Positions 13,808-49,951 of a stretch of 64,000 nucleotides of DNA are shown here, one piece after another. This DNA is from Phycisphaerales bacterium. GTDB lineage: Bacteria > Planctomycetota > Phycisphaerae > Phycisphaerales > UBA1924. A model generated the notes under the pieces. It had not been told where the DNA came from. It saw nothing but the letters and a program-made list of their open reading frames with translations, and ran no database searches. Position 1 is the stretch's first letter. The number at the start of each line of letters is the position of its first letter. The stretch spans positions 1 through 64,000 of the forward strand of contig WFPK01000025.1 of NCBI GenBank assembly GCA_015487555.1. The letters are read 5' to 3'. A program made the position numbers and the translations under genes.

Positions 13808-13918
13808 GCCCCCATTCTAACAGCTTGGCCCACGCCTTGCCGTCCTAACCCGCATCCTGTTGAGTTTTCTTGACCGATTCGGGCAAAGTTGCACGCGGAT
13901 CTAGTCGCTCTGGGCCCT

Positions 13919-14581
13919 ATGAGTAACTCGCCACCAGATCGGAAAGCACCCAAACTCTGCCAATCGGGTTATCAAACACGCCGGGAGTCTCGGTTTGGCA
14001 CCGATGAGCTCCATTGCTCACTCGGGCGCATCGCCGACATCACAGGCTCGGGCATGCGCATGATCGTCAAACCCGAAGACCTCCCCGAGGTCGGCGATAT
14101 CCAGTCCTACACCTTCACGGACGAGAAAAACGAACTCACCATCACCGGCACCGTCAAATGGACCCGCAAAGCAACACTCTTCACCCGCAGAGGCGAAATC
14201 GGGGTCGAGTTTGTCAAACTTGCCCCCCAAACCCGCGAAGCCATCATCCGCCTGGCAGTTCATGGCGAGATGGGGCTCGCCAAAGACAAAGATATCCAAG
14301 TCGCCTACCCAGACCTCTACAAAATCCTCGGCTCAAGCCGATACGCCAGCAAAGACGAACTCCAAGCAAGCTACCGCAAAGAGGCCAAAGCCTGGCACCC
14401 CGATGTCAACGATCATCCCCAAGCGGCCCAATACTTTGAAGAAATCCAAAAGGCCTACGCCGCCTTGAGCAACGACCAAGCCCGCGCCAAGTACGACCTC
14501 CGATTCTTCGGCCCCGAACTCGACCCCGAAAACACCTTCGGCGATCATCCCGACGAACAATCAGGCTTCGCTGCTGCGTGA
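13919..14581 (+). CDS. PilZ domain-J domain fusion protein
   Basis: A 220-residue protein; the ATG at 13919 is preferred to a TTG 30 bases upstream. Residues about 15-115 resemble PilZ, the c-di-GMP-binding fold: an RRESRF box, then GRIADITGSGMRMIV (matching D/NxSxxG) and GTVKWTRKATLFTRRGEIGVEF. Residues about 128-195 are a DnaJ-type J domain: YPDLYKILGSSRYASKDEL, ASYRKEAKAWHPDVN with the HPD motif, and AAQYFEEIQKAYAALSNDQA. J domains stimulate the Hsp70 ATPase. A PilZ-J combination is not one I know as common. It suggests second-messenger control of a DnaK client step, which is inference. Its 3' end overlaps the convergent gene by 37 bp. Confidence 0.82.
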   Translation: MSNSPPDRKAPKLCQSGYQTRRESRFGTDELHCSLGRIADITGSGMRMIVKPEDLPEVGDIQSYTFTDEKNELTITGTVKWTRKATLFTRRGEIGVEFVKLAPQTREAIIRLAVHGEMGLAKDKDIQVAYPDLYKILGSSRYASKDELQASYRKEAKAWHPDVNDHPQAAQYFEEIQKAYAALSNDQARAKYDLRFFGPELDPENTFGDHPDEQSGFAAA

Positions 14582-15279
14582 TCTGATCCACACTCCGGAC
14601 ACCGATCCAAATCCTCCGCCGCATACCCACACGCCAGGCACAACCCCCGGCGCTTTCGCCGATGAGTGCGAACCGTGCGCCAGATTACGCCGGGGAAATA
14701 CCATGCGGCGCTCCAAAAGAGGATATTGAGGAACAATCCTGTCCAGATCGGTGCGATCGGAATGCGGTAGAAGGGCATCCACGATGGAATCCAGTTTGGA
14801 CGATCAAGCCCTCGATAGATACCCGCGCGCTCATACATGAGTTGGTGATACGACATGACCTTCATGTTGGCGATGCTCGAACCAGTGCTTAGATCATCAA
14901 ACGAGAATGCCCGCCAAGGATAACCAAATCGAAATCGCGTGAGGTACACCGTCGGCGGGATGTCCGCATGTTCGATATCCCAAGTGTCTTGCAACCCGCC
15001 ATAGGTATACTCAATCAGGTCAAAGCCCAAGTTGTATCCTAAATACAAGGCTTCTCCATTCACACCCGCGGGCAATGCAAGCTCTGTATGCTCAAGGGGG
15101 GGAGCGATATCACTCAGATATGTGGGGGGATTCGGGTACGATCGCGGGGCATAGTCCATCACCCAGTTGCCGAGATTGCCAAAGGTTGCAATGGATTGGG
15201 CGATGAACACGGTAAGTATCACCCCCATGCAAAGCGCACGAAGCAATCGCCATCTCAGTTTGATCCGCTTTGCAATCAT
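14545..15279 (-). CDS. membrane protein with C-terminal zinc ribbon (paralogue 1 of 3)
   Basis: A 244-residue protein with a basic N-terminus, one membrane helix (LCMGVILTVFIAQSIATFG), a periplasmic or external middle, a second hydrophobic stretch (IWTGLFLNILFWSAAWYFPG), and a cytoplasmic basic linker (RTVRTHRRKRRGLCL). It ends with a CxxC...CxxC zinc ribbon: CLACGYAAEDLDRCPECGS. Function unknown; such ribbons are common on planctomycete membrane proteins. Two paralogues follow in tandem at 15359 and 16161. Likely topology: two transmembrane helices with ribbon and N-terminus inside. The last 37 bp overlap the PilZ-J gene on the other strand. Confidence 0.65.
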   Translation of the reverse strand: MIAKRIKLRWRLLRALCMGVILTVFIAQSIATFGNLGNWVMDYAPRSYPNPPTYLSDIAPPLEHTELALPAGVNGEALYLGYNLGFDLIEYTYGGLQDTWDIEHADIPPTVYLTRFRFGYPWRAFSFDDLSTGSSIANMKVMSYHQLMYERAGIYRGLDRPNWIPSWMPFYRIPIAPIWTGLFLNILFWSAAWYFPGVIWRTVRTHRRKRRGLCLACGYAAEDLDRCPECGSDHAAAKPDCSSG

Positions 15280-15358
15280 ACATCCCCAAGAAATCTACCA
15301 ACAGCTTCGCTCAAAGTTTCAAGCCCCCGGTGCCGTGGTTAAAATCTCGAAGAGATTT

Positions 15359-16099
15359 CTAACCACGATCTTCAACCCGCTCCGCCCCACACTCTGGGCA
15401 CACTTCCAAGTCCTCAACCGCATACCCACACGCGAGACAAAGTCCCCGACGCTTTTGCCGATGAGTGCGAACCGTGCGCCAGATCACGCCGGGGATGATC
15501 CAGAAGACGCTCCAAAACAGGAGGTTGATGATGAGTCCGCTCCAGATCGGGATTGCAGGCAATCGACGCCCGTACGCATCGCAGAAAAGCCAGCCCGGAT
15601 ATTCAATACCCATCTGCCGACCAGCGCATTGCTTGACCTGATCGAAATAGACCTTGAGTGATTGGCTCGTCCCACCTGAAACGCCATAGTCATCCCAATA
15701 TGCAGCACGCAGCGGAAACCCGAAGCGGTATCGTGAAAGAGACAGCGACGGCGGGCGATCGCCATCGCGTTTGACTTCCCAGCCGAGATGAGAGTCGCCA
15801 TAGATGTACTCGATGACATCGACACCAAAATCAGGAGTCGGCATAAACTGGCCATCACATTTGCCAAACGGTGTACGAGCCCAAGCGGATGAAAACGCAG
15901 GCGCGAGATCGCCCAAATAACTGGGAGCGTCTTGTGGGCGGATTGTGAGATCATGCTCACTGGAATAGGTCCAACTGTTGAGGTCTTGTACGGATGCCGG
16001 CCAGTATACAGTAAATGCAGTAGCGAGCAGTCCAAAGAGAACAGCCCGAGCATATCGCCACCTTCGTTTTCGTGTGTGCTTACGCATCCGAAAGATCAT
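15359..16099 (-). CDS. membrane protein with C-terminal zinc ribbon (paralogue 2 of 3)
   Basis: A 246-residue paralogue of the neighbouring gene, with the same plan: basic N-terminus, helix (RAVLFGLLATAFTVYW), a domain containing VDVIEYIYGDSHLGWEV and LSLSRYRFGFPLRAAYWDD (matching VDLIEYTYGG... and YLTRFRFGYPWRAFSFDD in paralogue 1), a second helix (GLIINLLFWSVFWIIPGVIW), the shared RTVRTHRQKRRGLCL linker, and the ribbon CLACGYAVEDLEVCPECGA. The start could also be the Met four codons later (MRKHTRKRRW). Function unknown. Confidence 0.65.
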   Translation of the reverse strand: MIFRMRKHTRKRRWRYARAVLFGLLATAFTVYWPASVQDLNSWTYSSEHDLTIRPQDAPSYLGDLAPAFSSAWARTPFGKCDGQFMPTPDFGVDVIEYIYGDSHLGWEVKRDGDRPPSLSLSRYRFGFPLRAAYWDDYGVSGGTSQSLKVYFDQVKQCAGRQMGIEYPGWLFCDAYGRRLPAIPIWSGLIINLLFWSVFWIIPGVIWRTVRTHRQKRRGLCLACGYAVEDLEVCPECGAERVEDRG

Positions 16100-16160
16100 A
16101 CCCGCCGCATACTCCCCGTTGCGAGATTCTGGTTTTTCCTATACACTATCGCTGGCGAGT

Positions 16161-16871
16161 TCAGGTGTGTTTGGTGCCGCATTCGGGACACTGGTTGAGG
16201 CCTTTCAGTGGGTACTGGCACTCTGGACAAAGCCCGCGCCTGCTGCGATTCGATCTGATTCGTTTCCATATCAGACGCCTACAAAAAAGCAGAATCTCGA
16301 AGATCAATGCGAACACGAGGACATTCGGAATGAATGTTCGCCAGATTGGCATCAGAGGCAGAAATCTACCGCCTTGCTTGTTAGAGATTTTGACACCGTT
16401 GAGAAACAAATCGCCAAACAGGGTTTGGGCACCCGGGCGGGCGTCGTCAGGTCCTCTGTGCGTCATGGTGTAGAACGGCCAACCCACATAGACCTGATCC
16501 ATTCCATACTCCAGCTGATCTTTGTAAAATGAGACCGTGCCTCCCAAAATGCGCGTCCCTTTGTGCATGCCTTGGCGTAGACGCATCCACGCAGGTCGGT
16601 CTCCCATCGATGCTGTGTTCAGATCATATGTCGTGTATATGAGTGTGGTTTGCTCTGGTTTCGTAGGCCAATGTTCAGGTACAGACTCAACCCAATGCGT
16701 GCTCACTCCATGCGTGTAGGCCATCGATGCAGGCAGTGCGACAATCACGATCGCATAAGTAAATGCGATTGTCATCACGATACCCGCGAGCGTGTCGCGA
16801 ATAACCCTGCAGGCGATCTTTGATATTCTGCGTTTCCTCATGCTGGATGAGACCTTACCAGATATTCTCAT
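16161..16871 (-). CDS. membrane protein with C-terminal zinc ribbon (paralogue 3 of 3)
   Basis: A 236-residue, more diverged member of the tandem family. It has an N-terminal helix (DTLAGIVMTIAFTYAIVIVA), an external domain with YVGWPFYTMTH, a second helix (FIPNVLVFALIFEILLFC) and the ribbon CPECQYPLKGLNQCPECGT. A start at the internal Met 11 (MRKRRISKIAC) would align better with the N-termini of the other two. Function unknown. It is the most AT-rich of the three. Confidence 0.6.
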   Translation of the reverse strand: MRISGKVSSSMRKRRISKIACRVIRDTLAGIVMTIAFTYAIVIVALPASMAYTHGVSTHWVESVPEHWPTKPEQTTLIYTTYDLNTASMGDRPAWMRLRQGMHKGTRILGGTVSFYKDQLEYGMDQVYVGWPFYTMTHRGPDDARPGAQTLFGDLFLNGVKISNKQGGRFLPLMPIWRTFIPNVLVFALIFEILLFCRRLIWKRIRSNRSRRGLCPECQYPLKGLNQCPECGTKHT

Positions 16872-45118: not shown

Positions 45119-47053
45119 TCAGGCAGCACGCCTGGGTTGGGCATGTGATGCGCGCCACTTTGCGACCAGATGAGCACAGGATTTGATGAGGGCGTCTTTG
45201 TTGATTGGTTTGGTCATGTATTCATCGCATCCAGCTGCGATGCAATGCTCGCGATCGCCATCGAGGGCGTGGGCGGTCAGGGCGATGATGGGGATGGTGA
45301 TGCCCTGTTCTCGGAGCTCAACGGTGGCGTGGTACCCATCGAGCACGGGCATCTGCATGTCCATGAGGATGAGGTCGAAGGGGGATTGGTTCTCGATGGC
45401 GTTGTTGATCGCGTCGATTGCTTGCTGACCATCATGTGCCTGCTCAATCGTAGCGCCGGTGCGTTTGAGGATATGTTCGAGGAGGACACGATTGTCTTTG
45501 GCATCATCGACGATGAGGAGTTTGATGGATTCGAGCGATGCCTGGGGCGATTGGGCATTGGCAGCGATATTCAGGGCAGGGCTTTGCTGGAGCGTTTCTT
45601 TGAGCCCGATGGTCAGGGTGAATGTGGAGCCTTGCCCTGGAGTGGATTCGACAGCGATATCGCCATTGAGCGCATGGGCGAGTTCCCGTGAGACGGTGAG
45701 TCCGAGTCCTGCGCCGCCGAAGGATCGGGTGAGGTTGTCGTCGGATTGGGTAAAGAGTTCGAATATGGATTGTTGATCTTCTGGTTTGATTCCAACGCCG
45801 GTGTCGGTGATTTTGATCTCAAGTGTTTGAGGGGTTGGCGTGTCGATAAGGGCGGCGGAGATGTCGATCCGTCCGGCATCTGTAAACTTGATGGCGTTGT
45901 CGATGAGGTTGTAGATGATCTGTTCGAGGCGTTTGGTGTCTGTCTCGATCTCGACGGGGCAAGACTGGTCGATATGCAAGTTGAGATCGAGTTGCTTGGC
46001 CTTGCTCAGAGGGTCGGCGTTGTTGCAGAGCCTCTCGAGGGTCTGGTGCAGGTTGCACTGCTCGGTGACGGTGCGGAGCTGTCCCGACTCGATCGCAGAC
46101 ATATCGAGCATGGTCTCGATGAGGTGGGTGAGCTGGGTGCTCGAATCGCAGATTGATTTGGTGAGCCTTGTACGCTCAGATTCAGAGAGCGATTCCTCCG
46201 CGAGGAGATCGGTGAATCCCACAATGGCGTTCATTGGTGTGCGAAACTCGTGTCCCATGTTCGAGAGCAGACGCCACCGGACCGCATCTGAACGGGCAGC
46301 CTGCTTGGTTGCCTTGTCGAGCTCTTGGAGCTGGCGTCGGATGATGAGGAAGGTTGGTTCGATGATAAAGAGGATATTGGCCGCCAGGACACCCAGGAGA
46401 ATAATCATCCCAAGTCTGGCGTAGGCGATGCTCTGGTCGATCTCGGATTCGTATTTCTGCTCCTCGAGCGAGACAATTTTCTCGATCCCCGGGAGGAGGG
46501 CCGCGTGGGCTTGTGCGATTTCATCCTTGGCTGCGGTGACACGATCGAGGGTAAGCTGGTCGATATAAGGCGATCTGCGAATGATGCTGATGGTCAGTTT
46601 GTTGAGTTCCACCGCTGCTTTGATCATGCTCTGGTAAGGCAATGCAATGTCGGCGAGTACCGCTTGCTCTGCTTCGGTATGCGCTTGATTGGCACCGGAT
46701 TGATGGACAAACTCAGTGAGGAAGAGGTGGGTTTCTTGGATATCCTGCGTGGATTGCTGGAGGTCACCCAAGGCGGGTTCGAGGGCATCCCAGTGCTGGA
46801 TTTGGATTGCATGGTCGATGGTGATGGCATCGGTGAGGATTTGTTGGGCGAGCAATCGTTGTTTGCTGGTGATACTGATTTTGGTTGCGGTGGTGGCATC
46901 GAGGACCGAGATGACACTGATGACCATCATCGCAGCCAAGACCGCAACAAAGGCGGCAGATCCGATGGCGAGCTTGCGGAATCGGGTGATGCTTCGGAGT
47001 ATCTGATTGCTGTTGGGTTCGCTCACCGAGGAGTTCCTGTGCTTTGAGATCAT
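45119..47053 (-). CDS. membrane hybrid histidine kinase with C-terminal receiver
   Basis: A 644-residue signalling protein. Two membrane helices (AIGSAAFVAVLAAMMVISVI and LGMIILLGVLAANILFIIEP) flank a helical sensor domain of about 160 residues resembling the PilJ/type IV pili MCP N-terminal bundle (ISITSKQRLLAQQILTDAIT). The kinase core follows: H-box NMGHEFRTPMNAIVGFTDLL, N-box YNLIDNAIKFTDAGRIDIS, G-boxes ITDTGVGIKPEDQQSIF and FGGAGLGLTVSRELAHAL. Then comes a complete receiver: LLIVDDAKDNRVLLEHIL, acceptor Asp in LILMDMQMPVLDGYHA and Lys in YMTKPINKDAL. It lies next to two PilZ proteins on the same strand. Confidence 0.93.
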   Translation of the reverse strand: MISKHRNSSVSEPNSNQILRSITRFRKLAIGSAAFVAVLAAMMVISVISVLDATTATKISITSKQRLLAQQILTDAITIDHAIQIQHWDALEPALGDLQQSTQDIQETHLFLTEFVHQSGANQAHTEAEQAVLADIALPYQSMIKAAVELNKLTISIIRRSPYIDQLTLDRVTAAKDEIAQAHAALLPGIEKIVSLEEQKYESEIDQSIAYARLGMIILLGVLAANILFIIEPTFLIIRRQLQELDKATKQAARSDAVRWRLLSNMGHEFRTPMNAIVGFTDLLAEESLSESERTRLTKSICDSSTQLTHLIETMLDMSAIESGQLRTVTEQCNLHQTLERLCNNADPLSKAKQLDLNLHIDQSCPVEIETDTKRLEQIIYNLIDNAIKFTDAGRIDISAALIDTPTPQTLEIKITDTGVGIKPEDQQSIFELFTQSDDNLTRSFGGAGLGLTVSRELAHALNGDIAVESTPGQGSTFTLTIGLKETLQQSPALNIAANAQSPQASLESIKLLIVDDAKDNRVLLEHILKRTGATIEQAHDGQQAIDAINNAIENQSPFDLILMDMQMPVLDGYHATVELREQGITIPIIALTAHALDGDREHCIAAGCDEYMTKPINKDALIKSCAHLVAKWRASHAQPRRAA

Positions 47054-47143
47054 CTAAAACCGTGTCGATGTTGCCCAGTATCGGCCAGATAGAGATTGGG
47101 CTGAAGTTCAAGTGCTTATGCAGGCTTGGGTTATGGCGGTGAT

Positions 47144-48235
47144 TCAGGCGGCCTGCTTGGTGCTTTTGCAGAGGGTCATGATGGATTTGAGCTCTTTGTC
47201 AAACTGATGCAAATCACCCGAAGCAGCGATTTTTTCCCCGACTTGCAAGGTGAGGTCGCGGAGTTCTTTCATACCCAACAGCGGGGCAAGCGAGCGGATT
47301 TTGGTGCAGGTGCCGTAGACTTTGATCGGATCATCAGAATGGATTTGCTGCTCGAGGAGAATGCCAAGCTTTGTAAGCTCTGTGCATATGGATTTGACGG
47401 TATCAATATCGACCCCCGAGCGGAGTGCTTCGAGCGTGTCTTGAGACCACTTGGTGAGGAGAAACTCGCCCAAGGCGCACATGACCGATTTCTCGGTCAG
47501 TGGCGTAGACAAGAACATGTCGGCATTTGAGAGTCTGATTTGCTGTTTGGTCAGCTCATCCTCTGCCTGACCTGCAAGAATAATCGGGTTGTGATAGTTG
47601 TTTTCGCGGAGGTATTTGGTGAACTCCGGGCCCGTCATATCCTCGAGATCAAGACACAAAAAGAGAAGTGCATATTGGTCGGCACCCTTCTCAAGCACTT
47701 CTTTGGCAGACTTGACGAACCCGAAGTTCATGTTGGTGTTGATAAGGTATTCGCGAAGAAATGGCACGACAGTTTCATCGGTGCCAACGAAGAGCACTTT
47801 TCCATTGAGTTGTTCGGGGTCGACGATTTCAAGCGAAGAAATGGAGTTGTTGATATCTGGGCGGACAAACTCCTGAACGATGATTTCTCGATCGAACTCG
47901 ATCCCGATTTCGTGGACGACGCCGCCTCGATGTGAGCATCGGCAGACTTTTCCCGAGACCCTCGAGACCGACCCGTCTGTCCGTCGGAGCCGGGCAGTGA
48001 TCCGGGTGTCAGTGTAGACAAAGCTCGCATGGAGCACGGACATCCCCCCGCGGGAGATGTTGCGCGTTGCGACGGTAATGTCTTTACGGGATCGATCCGC
48101 AGCTTCGAGCGTGAGCAGGAGGTAAGGGTCGAGGTATTCAAGGCGGGTATAGATACGATCGGCGGGGATATCGGTCGTTTTGGAAGCGATCTCGTCGAGC
48201 TTCGAGAGCAGCTGCTTGTAGACCGGATCGCTCAT
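47144..48235 (-). CDS. PilZ protein with degenerate receiver and HPt-like parts (1 of 2)
   Basis: A 363-residue protein starting MSDPVYKQLLSKLDEIASKT. Residues about 25-140 are PilZ-like (ITVATRNISRGGMSVLHASF, then GGVVHEIGIEFD). Residues about 145-260 look like a receiver (NGKVLFVGTDETVVPFLREY, YALLFLCLDLEDMTGPEFTK, ADMFLSTPLTEKSV), but the acidic pair, the acceptor Asp (Cys by alignment) and the Lys (Thr) are all lost. The C-terminal 100 residues resemble HPt (CTKIRSLAPLLGMKELRDLT) without the phospho-His. So it probably works by binding rather than phosphotransfer. Confidence 0.8.
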   Translation of the reverse strand: MSDPVYKQLLSKLDEIASKTTDIPADRIYTRLEYLDPYLLLTLEAADRSRKDITVATRNISRGGMSVLHASFVYTDTRITARLRRTDGSVSRVSGKVCRCSHRGGVVHEIGIEFDREIIVQEFVRPDINNSISSLEIVDPEQLNGKVLFVGTDETVVPFLREYLINTNMNFGFVKSAKEVLEKGADQYALLFLCLDLEDMTGPEFTKYLRENNYHNPIILAGQAEDELTKQQIRLSNADMFLSTPLTEKSVMCALGEFLLTKWSQDTLEALRSGVDIDTVKSICTELTKLGILLEQQIHSDDPIKVYGTCTKIRSLAPLLGMKELRDLTLQVGEKIAASGDLHQFDKELKSIMTLCKSTKQAA

Positions 48236-48413
48236 TCCAAGCGTGTTTCGTTTGTTAGGCAGGCAGGGTTTGGGAGATCGGCTTCTCATGCAATGCACGA
48301 TGGATCGGGCGATTGGCATTGGGAGTTGAGGGGTTGATGGCGCATTGAGGCACCGATTGCATCATCTGGCAATCGGTGGTTTGGGTGGTTCGGATTGGCA
48401 GGGTTATCGGGGG

Positions 48414-49547
48414 TTAGGCAGCGGGTCTGGCTTTGATTCTTCGGCAGGCAACGATGAGTGCTCGGATTTGAGATGAGGCGCCCTTGAGATCGCCAGTATC
48501 GAGCTTCTTCTCGGCTGCGATGGCAAGCTCGGAGATGGATTCAAATCCCAAAGGCGAAGCGGTACCCGAGAGGGCCCGGCAAGTTTCGATGCTGCTCTGG
48601 AGATCATCGTTCTGCATCGCCTTCTCAAGCCCGAGCGCCATCTTGGGGATGGCGGTGAGGAACTTGTTGAGCAACGAGTATGCGGGATCATCTTTGGTGA
48701 GCGTGGTGTAGAGCGGCCCCCCATCGCCATCGGCGTGGAGGAACTCTGCCAATGCCTGGAGGAGGCGTTCGCTGGAGATCGGCTTTGAGAGGATGCCCGA
48801 TGCGTCGGCGTCTCGGATGGTGTCAAGGATCGTTTCCGATTTGTCCGAGGTCATAATAATCACAGGCATATCCGCGCCTTGAGATCGCAGGGCCTTGACG
48901 AGATCGGCGCCCGACTCTTCGCCAAGATGAAAATCGGAGATCACCAGATCACATCCCTTAGAAGCCCTCTTTACAGCCGATTCGATGGTGTTGGCATAGG
49001 TGAGCATAAGCCCGGTTTCTTCGAGGAAGACGAAGATGATGTCTCGATCGAGTTCAGTGGGCGTGACGACCAGGACCGAACCATGGAGATGCTTGGGCTC
49101 GACACGCTCGAGTGAATACGCCTCGTTGAGCGGGTCGAGCCCCAAGAGGTCCTTGGTAGAAATCTGTTCATCAAAGGCAATCCCGACCTCGTGCACACGC
49201 CCGGTGATATGAGCGCACCGGATAACCTTCGCAGGGATACCCTGTGATTTGCCGCCCGGGATTTGAAGCACAACCTCGCACGGGCTTCCGGTGTGGATAT
49301 AAGTCGAGTGGAGGATGGAGATGCCGCCTCGAGAGATGTTTCGCGTGGCGACGGGTAAAGAAATCTTTGATCCGGTGGCGTGCTCGAGGATGAGATCAAC
49401 CGCGCTGAGCCGATATGTCCATCGGACGAACTCGCGATCGGGATGGGCCGTCTTGGTTTGCGAGTGATCGAACTGTTCAAGGAGTTTCTGGAGATCGTGC
49501 TGGGCAAGGCGGAGGGTATTGAGCTTGTTGTTGGGGTCGCTGGCCAT
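48414..49547 (-). CDS. PilZ protein with receiver-like and HPt-like parts (2 of 2)
   Basis: A 377-residue paralogue of the next gene, with the same three-part plan. PilZ: LPVATRNISRGGISILHSTY and HITGRVHEVGIAFDEQISTK. Receiver: SVLVVTPTELDRDIIFVFLE, with an Asp kept in CDLVISDFHLGEESGADLV and Lys in GILSKPISSERLLQAL, but no acidic pair after the first strand. HPt-like end: IETCRALSGTASPLGFESIS, where the usual AHxLKG reads CRALSG, so the phospho-His is missing. The start at 49547 (MASDPNN) matches MSDP of the paralogue; ATG 49559 is an alternative. About 180 bp separate the two genes. Confidence 0.8.
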   Translation of the reverse strand: MASDPNNKLNTLRLAQHDLQKLLEQFDHSQTKTAHPDREFVRWTYRLSAVDLILEHATGSKISLPVATRNISRGGISILHSTYIHTGSPCEVVLQIPGGKSQGIPAKVIRCAHITGRVHEVGIAFDEQISTKDLLGLDPLNEAYSLERVEPKHLHGSVLVVTPTELDRDIIFVFLEETGLMLTYANTIESAVKRASKGCDLVISDFHLGEESGADLVKALRSQGADMPVIIMTSDKSETILDTIRDADASGILSKPISSERLLQALAEFLHADGDGGPLYTTLTKDDPAYSLLNKFLTAIPKMALGLEKAMQNDDLQSSIETCRALSGTASPLGFESISELAIAAEKKLDTGDLKGASSQIRALIVACRRIKARPAA

Positions 49548-49951
49548 AAAAGTTTCCATCGAGAGATGATGTGCGAACGGATGGGCTTTTTCTGGCGGGG
49601 ATATCGTTACCAAAGGATGTCGGCTTAGACGCAGGCAGGATATGCGACAGGAATGTGTTGATGCGCCCAAAAACAACCCAAAGCTGGGGCATCGCGCGGT
49701 TGAGAAGCTTTGGAATCGGTGGGCTTCCTAGGGCGTGTCTGACGGCTCAAAGACATCCCATCGGGTGCCACGACTCGCCGTCTTGGGTGCAGTCGTGCTT
49801 TGGTTTCTCCGCCATCAAAGAACACGACTGCGCCCTTCGGGCGAGTCGTGGCACCCAGATTCGGATTGATAAACGAGCCGTCAGACACGATCGAGGCGGG
49901 CTTCCTCCAGGTGGGTTTTCCGGGCGGGAAGCTTGGGGGATGCCGAGCCGA
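49548..49951. other. intergenic region with palindromic element
   Basis: This gap of about 400 bp lies between the PilZ gene start and the gyrB stop; both genes read leftward. It holds the palindromic element at 49735-49888 and, presumably between 49560 and 49730, the promoter of the PilZ gene. No gene is supported. Confidence 0.6.
49735..49888. repeat. twin-hairpin palindromic element, copy 2
   Basis: A 154-bp element with perfect 14-bp terminal inverted repeats (GTGTCTGACGGCTC at 49735-49748 and GAGCCGTCAGACAC at 49875-49888). A 17-bp inner arm (GGGTGCCACGACTCGCC at 49763-49779) is inverted at 49840-49856. Each half folds alone as well, CACGACT/AGTCGTG occurring in both halves. Outer sequence and layout match copy 1 at 27.8 kb. 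No ORF content of note. A MITE-like or structured-RNA element would both fit. Confidence 0.9.

Follow-up and report, generated by a model that had tools for sequence, protein, structure and literature searches.

In Myxococcus xanthus the meeting of c-di-GMP with the Hsp70 system is already established, and the architecture class to which the protein described here belongs is not new. Four of the 24 PilZ proteins of this bacterium carry a DnaK or DnaJ domain (PMC8316039). Two of its proteins, CsdK1 and CsdK2, are PilZ-DnaK chaperones that enable the c-di-GMP-binding protein CdbS to accumulate in heat stress (PMC10313047). The M. xanthus PilZ-DnaJ proteins have been listed and deleted only, and they are likened here to our protein by description, not by sequence. 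A literature search on the phrase 'PilZ-DnaJ' returned only unrelated papers. More generally, a J domain joined to a partner domain other than those of DnaJ makes a class C J-domain protein.

The protein analysed here, PilZ-J, is encoded in a 64,000-nucleotide stretch of Phycisphaerales DNA (the window). Like the M. xanthus proteins it fuses PilZ to a module of the Hsp70 system, and CsdK2 has its c-di-GMP motif intact. However, CsdK1 and CsdK2 come from a different phylum and carry Hsp70 itself instead of a J domain; Pfam detects no DnaK domain within PilZ-J, which may at most work alike. The novelty lies in a J-domain family conserved within another phylum, a degron-like tail that is invariant in the genus, and a network of proteins sharing that tail. 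As PilZ-J is compact and conserved, second-messenger control of an Hsp70 co-chaperone becomes directly testable.

A PilZ domain and a J domain in one protein

The gene and its parts are located as follows.

13919..14581, + strand: PilZ-J gene (ATG at 13919, stop at 14579-14581, 220 amino acids; supported by orthologues)
13979..14263, + strand: PilZ domain, residues 21-115 (Pfam match at residues 36-112; barrel in the model; Foldseek matches to MrkH, Alg44 and PP4397)
13979..13993, + strand: RxxxR motif, R21-R25 (RRESR; read from the sequence, R21 and R25 invariant in alignment A1)
14036..14053, + strand: D-x-S/T-x-x-G motif, D40-G45 (DITGSG; read from the sequence, present in 45/45 fused homologues)
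14312..14497, + strand: J domain, residues 132-193 (Pfam 67.4 bits; model pLDDT about 90; J-domain structures matched at E 7e-5)
14396..14404, + strand: HPD tripeptide, residues 160-162 (read from the sequence)
14522..14578, + strand: disordered C-terminal tail, residues 202-220, ending Ala-Ala (pLDDT below 50; Ala-Ala conserved)

The first-pass annotation had read a PilZ fold and a J domain in a single protein, and had staked this claim beforehand on support for PilZ within residues 15-115. A domain search of both halves matched Pfam PilZ (PF07238) at residues 36-112 (34.7 bits against a cut-off of 22.5, E 2.3e-8, profile positions 25-99) and Pfam DnaJ at residues 132-193 (67.4 bits against a cut-off of 27.8, E 1.2e-18), and the claim stands, the model and the orthologues agreeing with both matches. 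The HPD reported as intact was indeed found (WHPD, H160-P161-D162), as were the RxxxR box and the D/NxSxxG-like motif, the latter (DITGSG) with Thr replacing the canonical Ser. No other Pfam domain was detected, and no NCBIfam family covers the whole protein.

An AlphaFold2 prediction built from 20 orthologues reached a mean pLDDT of 75, with about 85 in the beta barrel and about 90 in the J domain, and fell below 50 at the N-terminus, in a short hinge (residues 123-128) and over the last 19 residues. Given this hinge and a pTM of 0.45, the model does not fix the position of the two domains relative to each other. When the model was compared with known structures by Foldseek, J domains and c-di-GMP PilZ structures were matched, among them MrkH (5kgo, E 3.8e-4) and Alg44 (4rt0, E 1.2e-3); the nearest PilZ structures include the c-di-GMP complexes 5kgo, 4rt0, 3kyf and 4xrn. 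A spurious PilZ match is ruled out by the agreement of profile, model and orthologues, a misjoining of two genes by the open frame in 45 homologues, and a chance reading frame by 86% identity over all 220 residues with a second Phycisphaerales genome and by the recurrence of the two-domain protein within the genus. The fusion is thus genuine.

With an HPD-bearing J domain and none of the other DnaJ regions (Gly/Phe, zinc finger, C-terminal domain), PilZ-J resembles class C J-domain proteins, but its partner domain is a predicted second-messenger receptor, its J domain is C-terminal, and the HPD has been lost twice. With PilZ receptors of the MrkH, Alg44, PP4397 and YcgR type it shares the fold and both nucleotide motifs, so that binding of c-di-GMP is predicted; unlike them, its output would be a J domain, and Thr stands for Ser in the genus.

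Distribution, motif conservation and loss of the HPD

The closest named relative of PilZ-J, at 86% identity, is from a Phycisphaerales MAG. Of 20 sampled genomes of the genus, 18 have full-length fusions, the two others being 56% and 61% complete. A search of 397 genomes of the class gave full-length matches in 12 of 41 genomes from other genera of the same family; fusions also occur in part of the other families of the order (f2, f3, f5 and f6), patchily across it. No fusion was found outside the order among these 397 genomes, nor among the best matches listed from 392 genomes of the phylum, searched with a profile of 38 diverse fusions, a procedure that highly diverged fusions may escape. 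About 650 genomes outside the order were searched in all. The distribution across Planctomycetota, which the first-pass annotation had proposed to survey, is thus confined to one order in the genomes sampled, and PilZ-J forms a family that spans this planctomycete order. The suggestion that the architecture is uncommon holds for this phylum in the genomes sampled; PilZ-DnaJ and PilZ-DnaK proteins are already known from M. xanthus (PMC8316039, PMC10313047). A single origin of the fusion was not rejected by trees of either domain (AU p 0.67 and 0.50); these trees, built on 68-104 columns with PilZ-only rows picked for likeness to the query, are poorly resolved in their branching and cannot show a single origin, although they are compatible with one.

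Variants of the arrangement were seen in the order. One locus (L054 in genome G404, 1456-2436, + strand) encodes a PilZ-J-PilZ protein, in which the PilZ domain occurs twice and the C-terminus is Ala-Ala. At two others (L042 in G381 and L044 in G319) the fusion gene has a further PilZ gene no more than about 1.5 kb away; the products of these second genes, of 338 and 383 amino acids stop to stop, both end Ala-Ala.

Motifs were counted by regular expression over 45 fused proteins and checked by eye; in one of them (L012) the expression had hit a chance match instead of the true motif, DITGSG. The RxxxR motif is kept in 44 of the 45, the D/N-x-S/T-x-x-G motif in all 45 when Thr is allowed, and the HPD in 40, a conservation that spans homologues down to about 24-30% identity. 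In the HPD-bearing members of the genus, the PilZ and J domains are conserved to the same degree, at about 54% identity, while identity drops to 25% in the linker joining them and to 22% at the N-terminus.

The link from c-di-GMP to Hsp70 proposed at first reading fits this motif conservation and is plausible. We give about an even chance to PilZ-J being a short-lived, c-di-GMP-controlled specialised co-chaperone of the class C type, in which c-di-GMP would set the client or the location; for this reading we infer binding, DnaK stimulation, client, degradation and sigma factor. The PilZ domain would bind c-di-GMP via R21/R25 and D40-G45, and binding would alter the exposure of the PilZ face and the hinge. 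The flexibly linked J domain would bring DnaK to a c-di-GMP-dependent partner, probably of a surface or pilus related pathway, where its HPD would trigger ATP hydrolysis by DnaK. The exposed Ala-Ala tail would make PilZ-J a substrate of the ClpXP/ClpAP type, so that its level could be reset. A C-terminal, flexibly tethered J domain is expected if PilZ picks the partner or place and J brings DnaK. Both Pfam matches, the model, the Foldseek results and the motif conservation argue for this reading, and the linker and N-terminus appear to evolve freely while both domains are conserved. The source genome contains c-di-GMP machinery and Hsp70 genes (five GGDEF genes, one EAL gene and two full-length Hsp70 genes), so that both partners of PilZ-J exist. 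By analogy, the Ala-Ala tail together with the tmRNA tag, and the precedent of CsdK1 and CsdK2, also point this way.

Several results argue against a co-chaperone. The HPD has been lost in two separate lineages although the gene persists: a supported clade of three genomes in the genus (G010, G014 and G018; loci L018, L017 and L014, respectively) and another clade, G284 and G392 (L052 and L056). The proteins of both lineages retain RxxxR and D-x-S/T-x-x-G, and those of the genus lineage also retain helices III and IV of the J domain. Judged from these residues, Hsp70 stimulation is not family-wide. This pattern would suit a c-di-GMP effector whose conserved function is PilZ-based and whose J domain is mainly an interaction module, Hsp70 stimulation being secondary or absent, and close PilZ-only homologues indeed exist in the same order. 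We nevertheless hold this explanation to be somewhat doubtful, since the HPD persists in 40 of 45 proteins across deep divergence and conservation of the J domain equals that of PilZ in the HPD-bearing genus members. Also against a co-chaperone, gene context yields no client, and PilZ-J evolves faster than its neighbours (38-61% identity, one close relative aside, against 76-93% for the adjacent aldehyde dehydrogenase); the M. xanthus mutants affected in motility or development included none for the four PilZ proteins that have DnaK or DnaJ (0/4; PMC8316039).

A further difficulty for a c-di-GMP-controlled co-chaperone is the Thr in place of Ser in the second PilZ motif of the genus; PixB binds c-di-GMP despite missing this Ser (PMC8316039). 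The substitution could mean that c-di-GMP sensing by the PilZ domain has been lost and that the domain serves only for docking on a partner, making PilZ-J a constitutive targeted co-chaperone, and PlpA has the motif residues yet is reported as non-binding (PMC8316039). We regard such a loss of sensing as unlikely, because both nucleotide-binding motifs are near-perfectly conserved and c-di-GMP complexes are among the nearest structures.

C-terminal Ala-Ala tails in the c-di-GMP network

The first-pass annotation mentioned neither the conserved C-terminal Ala-Ala nor the promoter-like element described below. PilZ-J ends -GFAAA, in the region of the model with pLDDT below 50. Ala-Ala ends all 19 PilZ-J proteins of the genus and one same-family row in alignment A1, in which the tails ahead of it vary in length and sequence. 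Outside the genus but within the family, most fusions end -AA, -VA or -SA; those of other families do not.

We then compared other proteins of the source genome. Ala-Ala ends 8 of its 11 PilZ or GGDEF proteins: PilZ-J, the PilZ proteins C98 and C17 (the latter end, ...LPKAA, read by eye), two PilZ response regulators of the window, a GGDEF-EAL protein (C108), an HDOD-GGDEF-REC protein (C29) and an HDOD-GGDEF protein (C23). Among about 471 other genes of the sampled stretches, including a blind contig set, only 6 encode this ending, a rate near the 1% that composition predicts; the contrast with the PilZ and GGDEF proteins has a Fisher p of 7e-12. Half of the stretches were chosen for c-di-GMP genes, which affects the genes seen but not the rate among the others. 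In six further genomes of the genus Ala-Ala was found on 19 of 27 PilZ and 18 of 30 GGDEF proteins; these rows are mutually orthologous, so that a pooled p-value is overstated, and grouping by eye gives about 8 of 12 orthologous families. Outside the genus, the ending was present on 8 of 30 GGDEF proteins. A general trait of the genome is ruled out by the rate of about 1% in other proteins, and a mark of all signalling proteins holds weakly at most, response-regulator proteins in general having it in 4 of 30 cases. An ORF ending -AA at L113 was set aside as probably a spurious antisense frame, with no Pfam match and dropped by codon-usage gene calls.

The two response regulators belong to a cluster of genes on the - strand of the window (45119-49676), which encodes histidine kinase-receiver, PilZ-receiver and PilZ-receiver-(weak Hpt) proteins and adjoins a gyrB-like gene. 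RxxxR and NISRGG are present in each of the two PilZ parts, and all three proteins end Ala-Ala.

45119-47053, - strand: gene with C-terminal Ala-Ala
47144-48319, - strand: gene with C-terminal Ala-Ala
48414-49676, - strand: gene with C-terminal Ala-Ala

Ala-Ala is the main element of the ssrA tag recognised by ClpXP (PMC7652416), and in Caulobacter turnover of CdnL needs its C-terminal AA, more than 80% of alphaproteobacterial CdnL homologues ending AA or VA (PMC5324124). With these precedents, and a tmRNA tag of AEPQYALAA in the source genome, a ClpXP-type degron is a reasonable reading. As in ssrA and CdnL, the PilZ-J tail is free, probably disordered and ends Ala-Ala; unlike them, it is a putative degron by sequence and is common to most of one signalling network. 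The shared tails suggest a ClpXP-type degron on the c-di-GMP network, from which we infer degradation. The presence of Ala-Ala on most c-di-GMP proteins of the genus points to network-wide control by proteolysis, which has been described piecemeal in Caulobacter; no description from a planctomycete was found in the literature searched.

Since such tails are common to c-di-GMP proteins, PilZ-J might itself regulate proteolysis, bringing DnaK and/or a Clp protease to Ala-Ala-tailed c-di-GMP proteins and so protecting or delivering them. CsdK1 and CsdK2 appear to stabilise CdbS (PMC10313047), and PopA is a c-di-GMP-binding ClpXP adaptor that helps to deliver CtrA (PMC8973945). However, PilZ-J carries the ending itself and may be just another substrate, and its contact with other tailed proteins is hypothetical; we consider this role very unlikely.

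Upstream element and gene neighbourhood

A promoter-like element precedes the gene in the window.

13884..13911, + strand: CAAAGT-N14-GTCGCTCT, just 5' of the ATG (conserved ahead of genus orthologues)

The upstream regions of genus orthologues have CAAAGTC in common, followed after a spacer of 13 bases by (G/T)(C/T)CG(C/T)T, which stops about 6-12 bases short of the ATG; remoter genus orthologues retain just the second half. The consensus of E. coli sigma28 is TAAAGTTT-n11-GCCGATAA (PMC2859248). Compared with it, the element of the window has a spacing one base longer and a poor -10 half, and the orthologues match better; the likeness was found post hoc and with the E. coli consensus. In the source genome and four others, orthologues of the C98 PilZ protein are preceded by (G/C)AAG(T/A)-type elements of equal spacing with a perfect GCCGATAA, the E. 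coli sigma28 -10 consensus. Related sites lie ahead of an HDOD-GGDEF gene, a gene whose product weakly matches PilN, and a secretin gene, which hints at one regulon that may join c-di-GMP and pilus functions. A genome-wide sigma28 regulon was not borne out in G007, whose genes had no site with fewer than three mismatches. A broader scheme would have most c-di-GMP proteins (cyclases, PilZ effectors and PilZ response regulators) tagged with Ala-Ala and partly placed under one sigma28-like promoter class, PilZ-J being a c-di-GMP-gated co-chaperone that chooses between DnaK protection and the protease; we rate it as quite unlikely.

PilZ-J is a lone gene between a divergent aldehyde dehydrogenase gene and a conserved block, and its neighbourhood revealed neither an operon nor a client. 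At 14545-16871 on the - strand of the window lie three genes in tandem for look-alike membrane proteins with a zinc-ribbon-like C-terminal tail (CxxC-CPxCG), for which no NCBIfam match was found. The first of these genes shares 37 bases with the 3' end of the PilZ-J gene.
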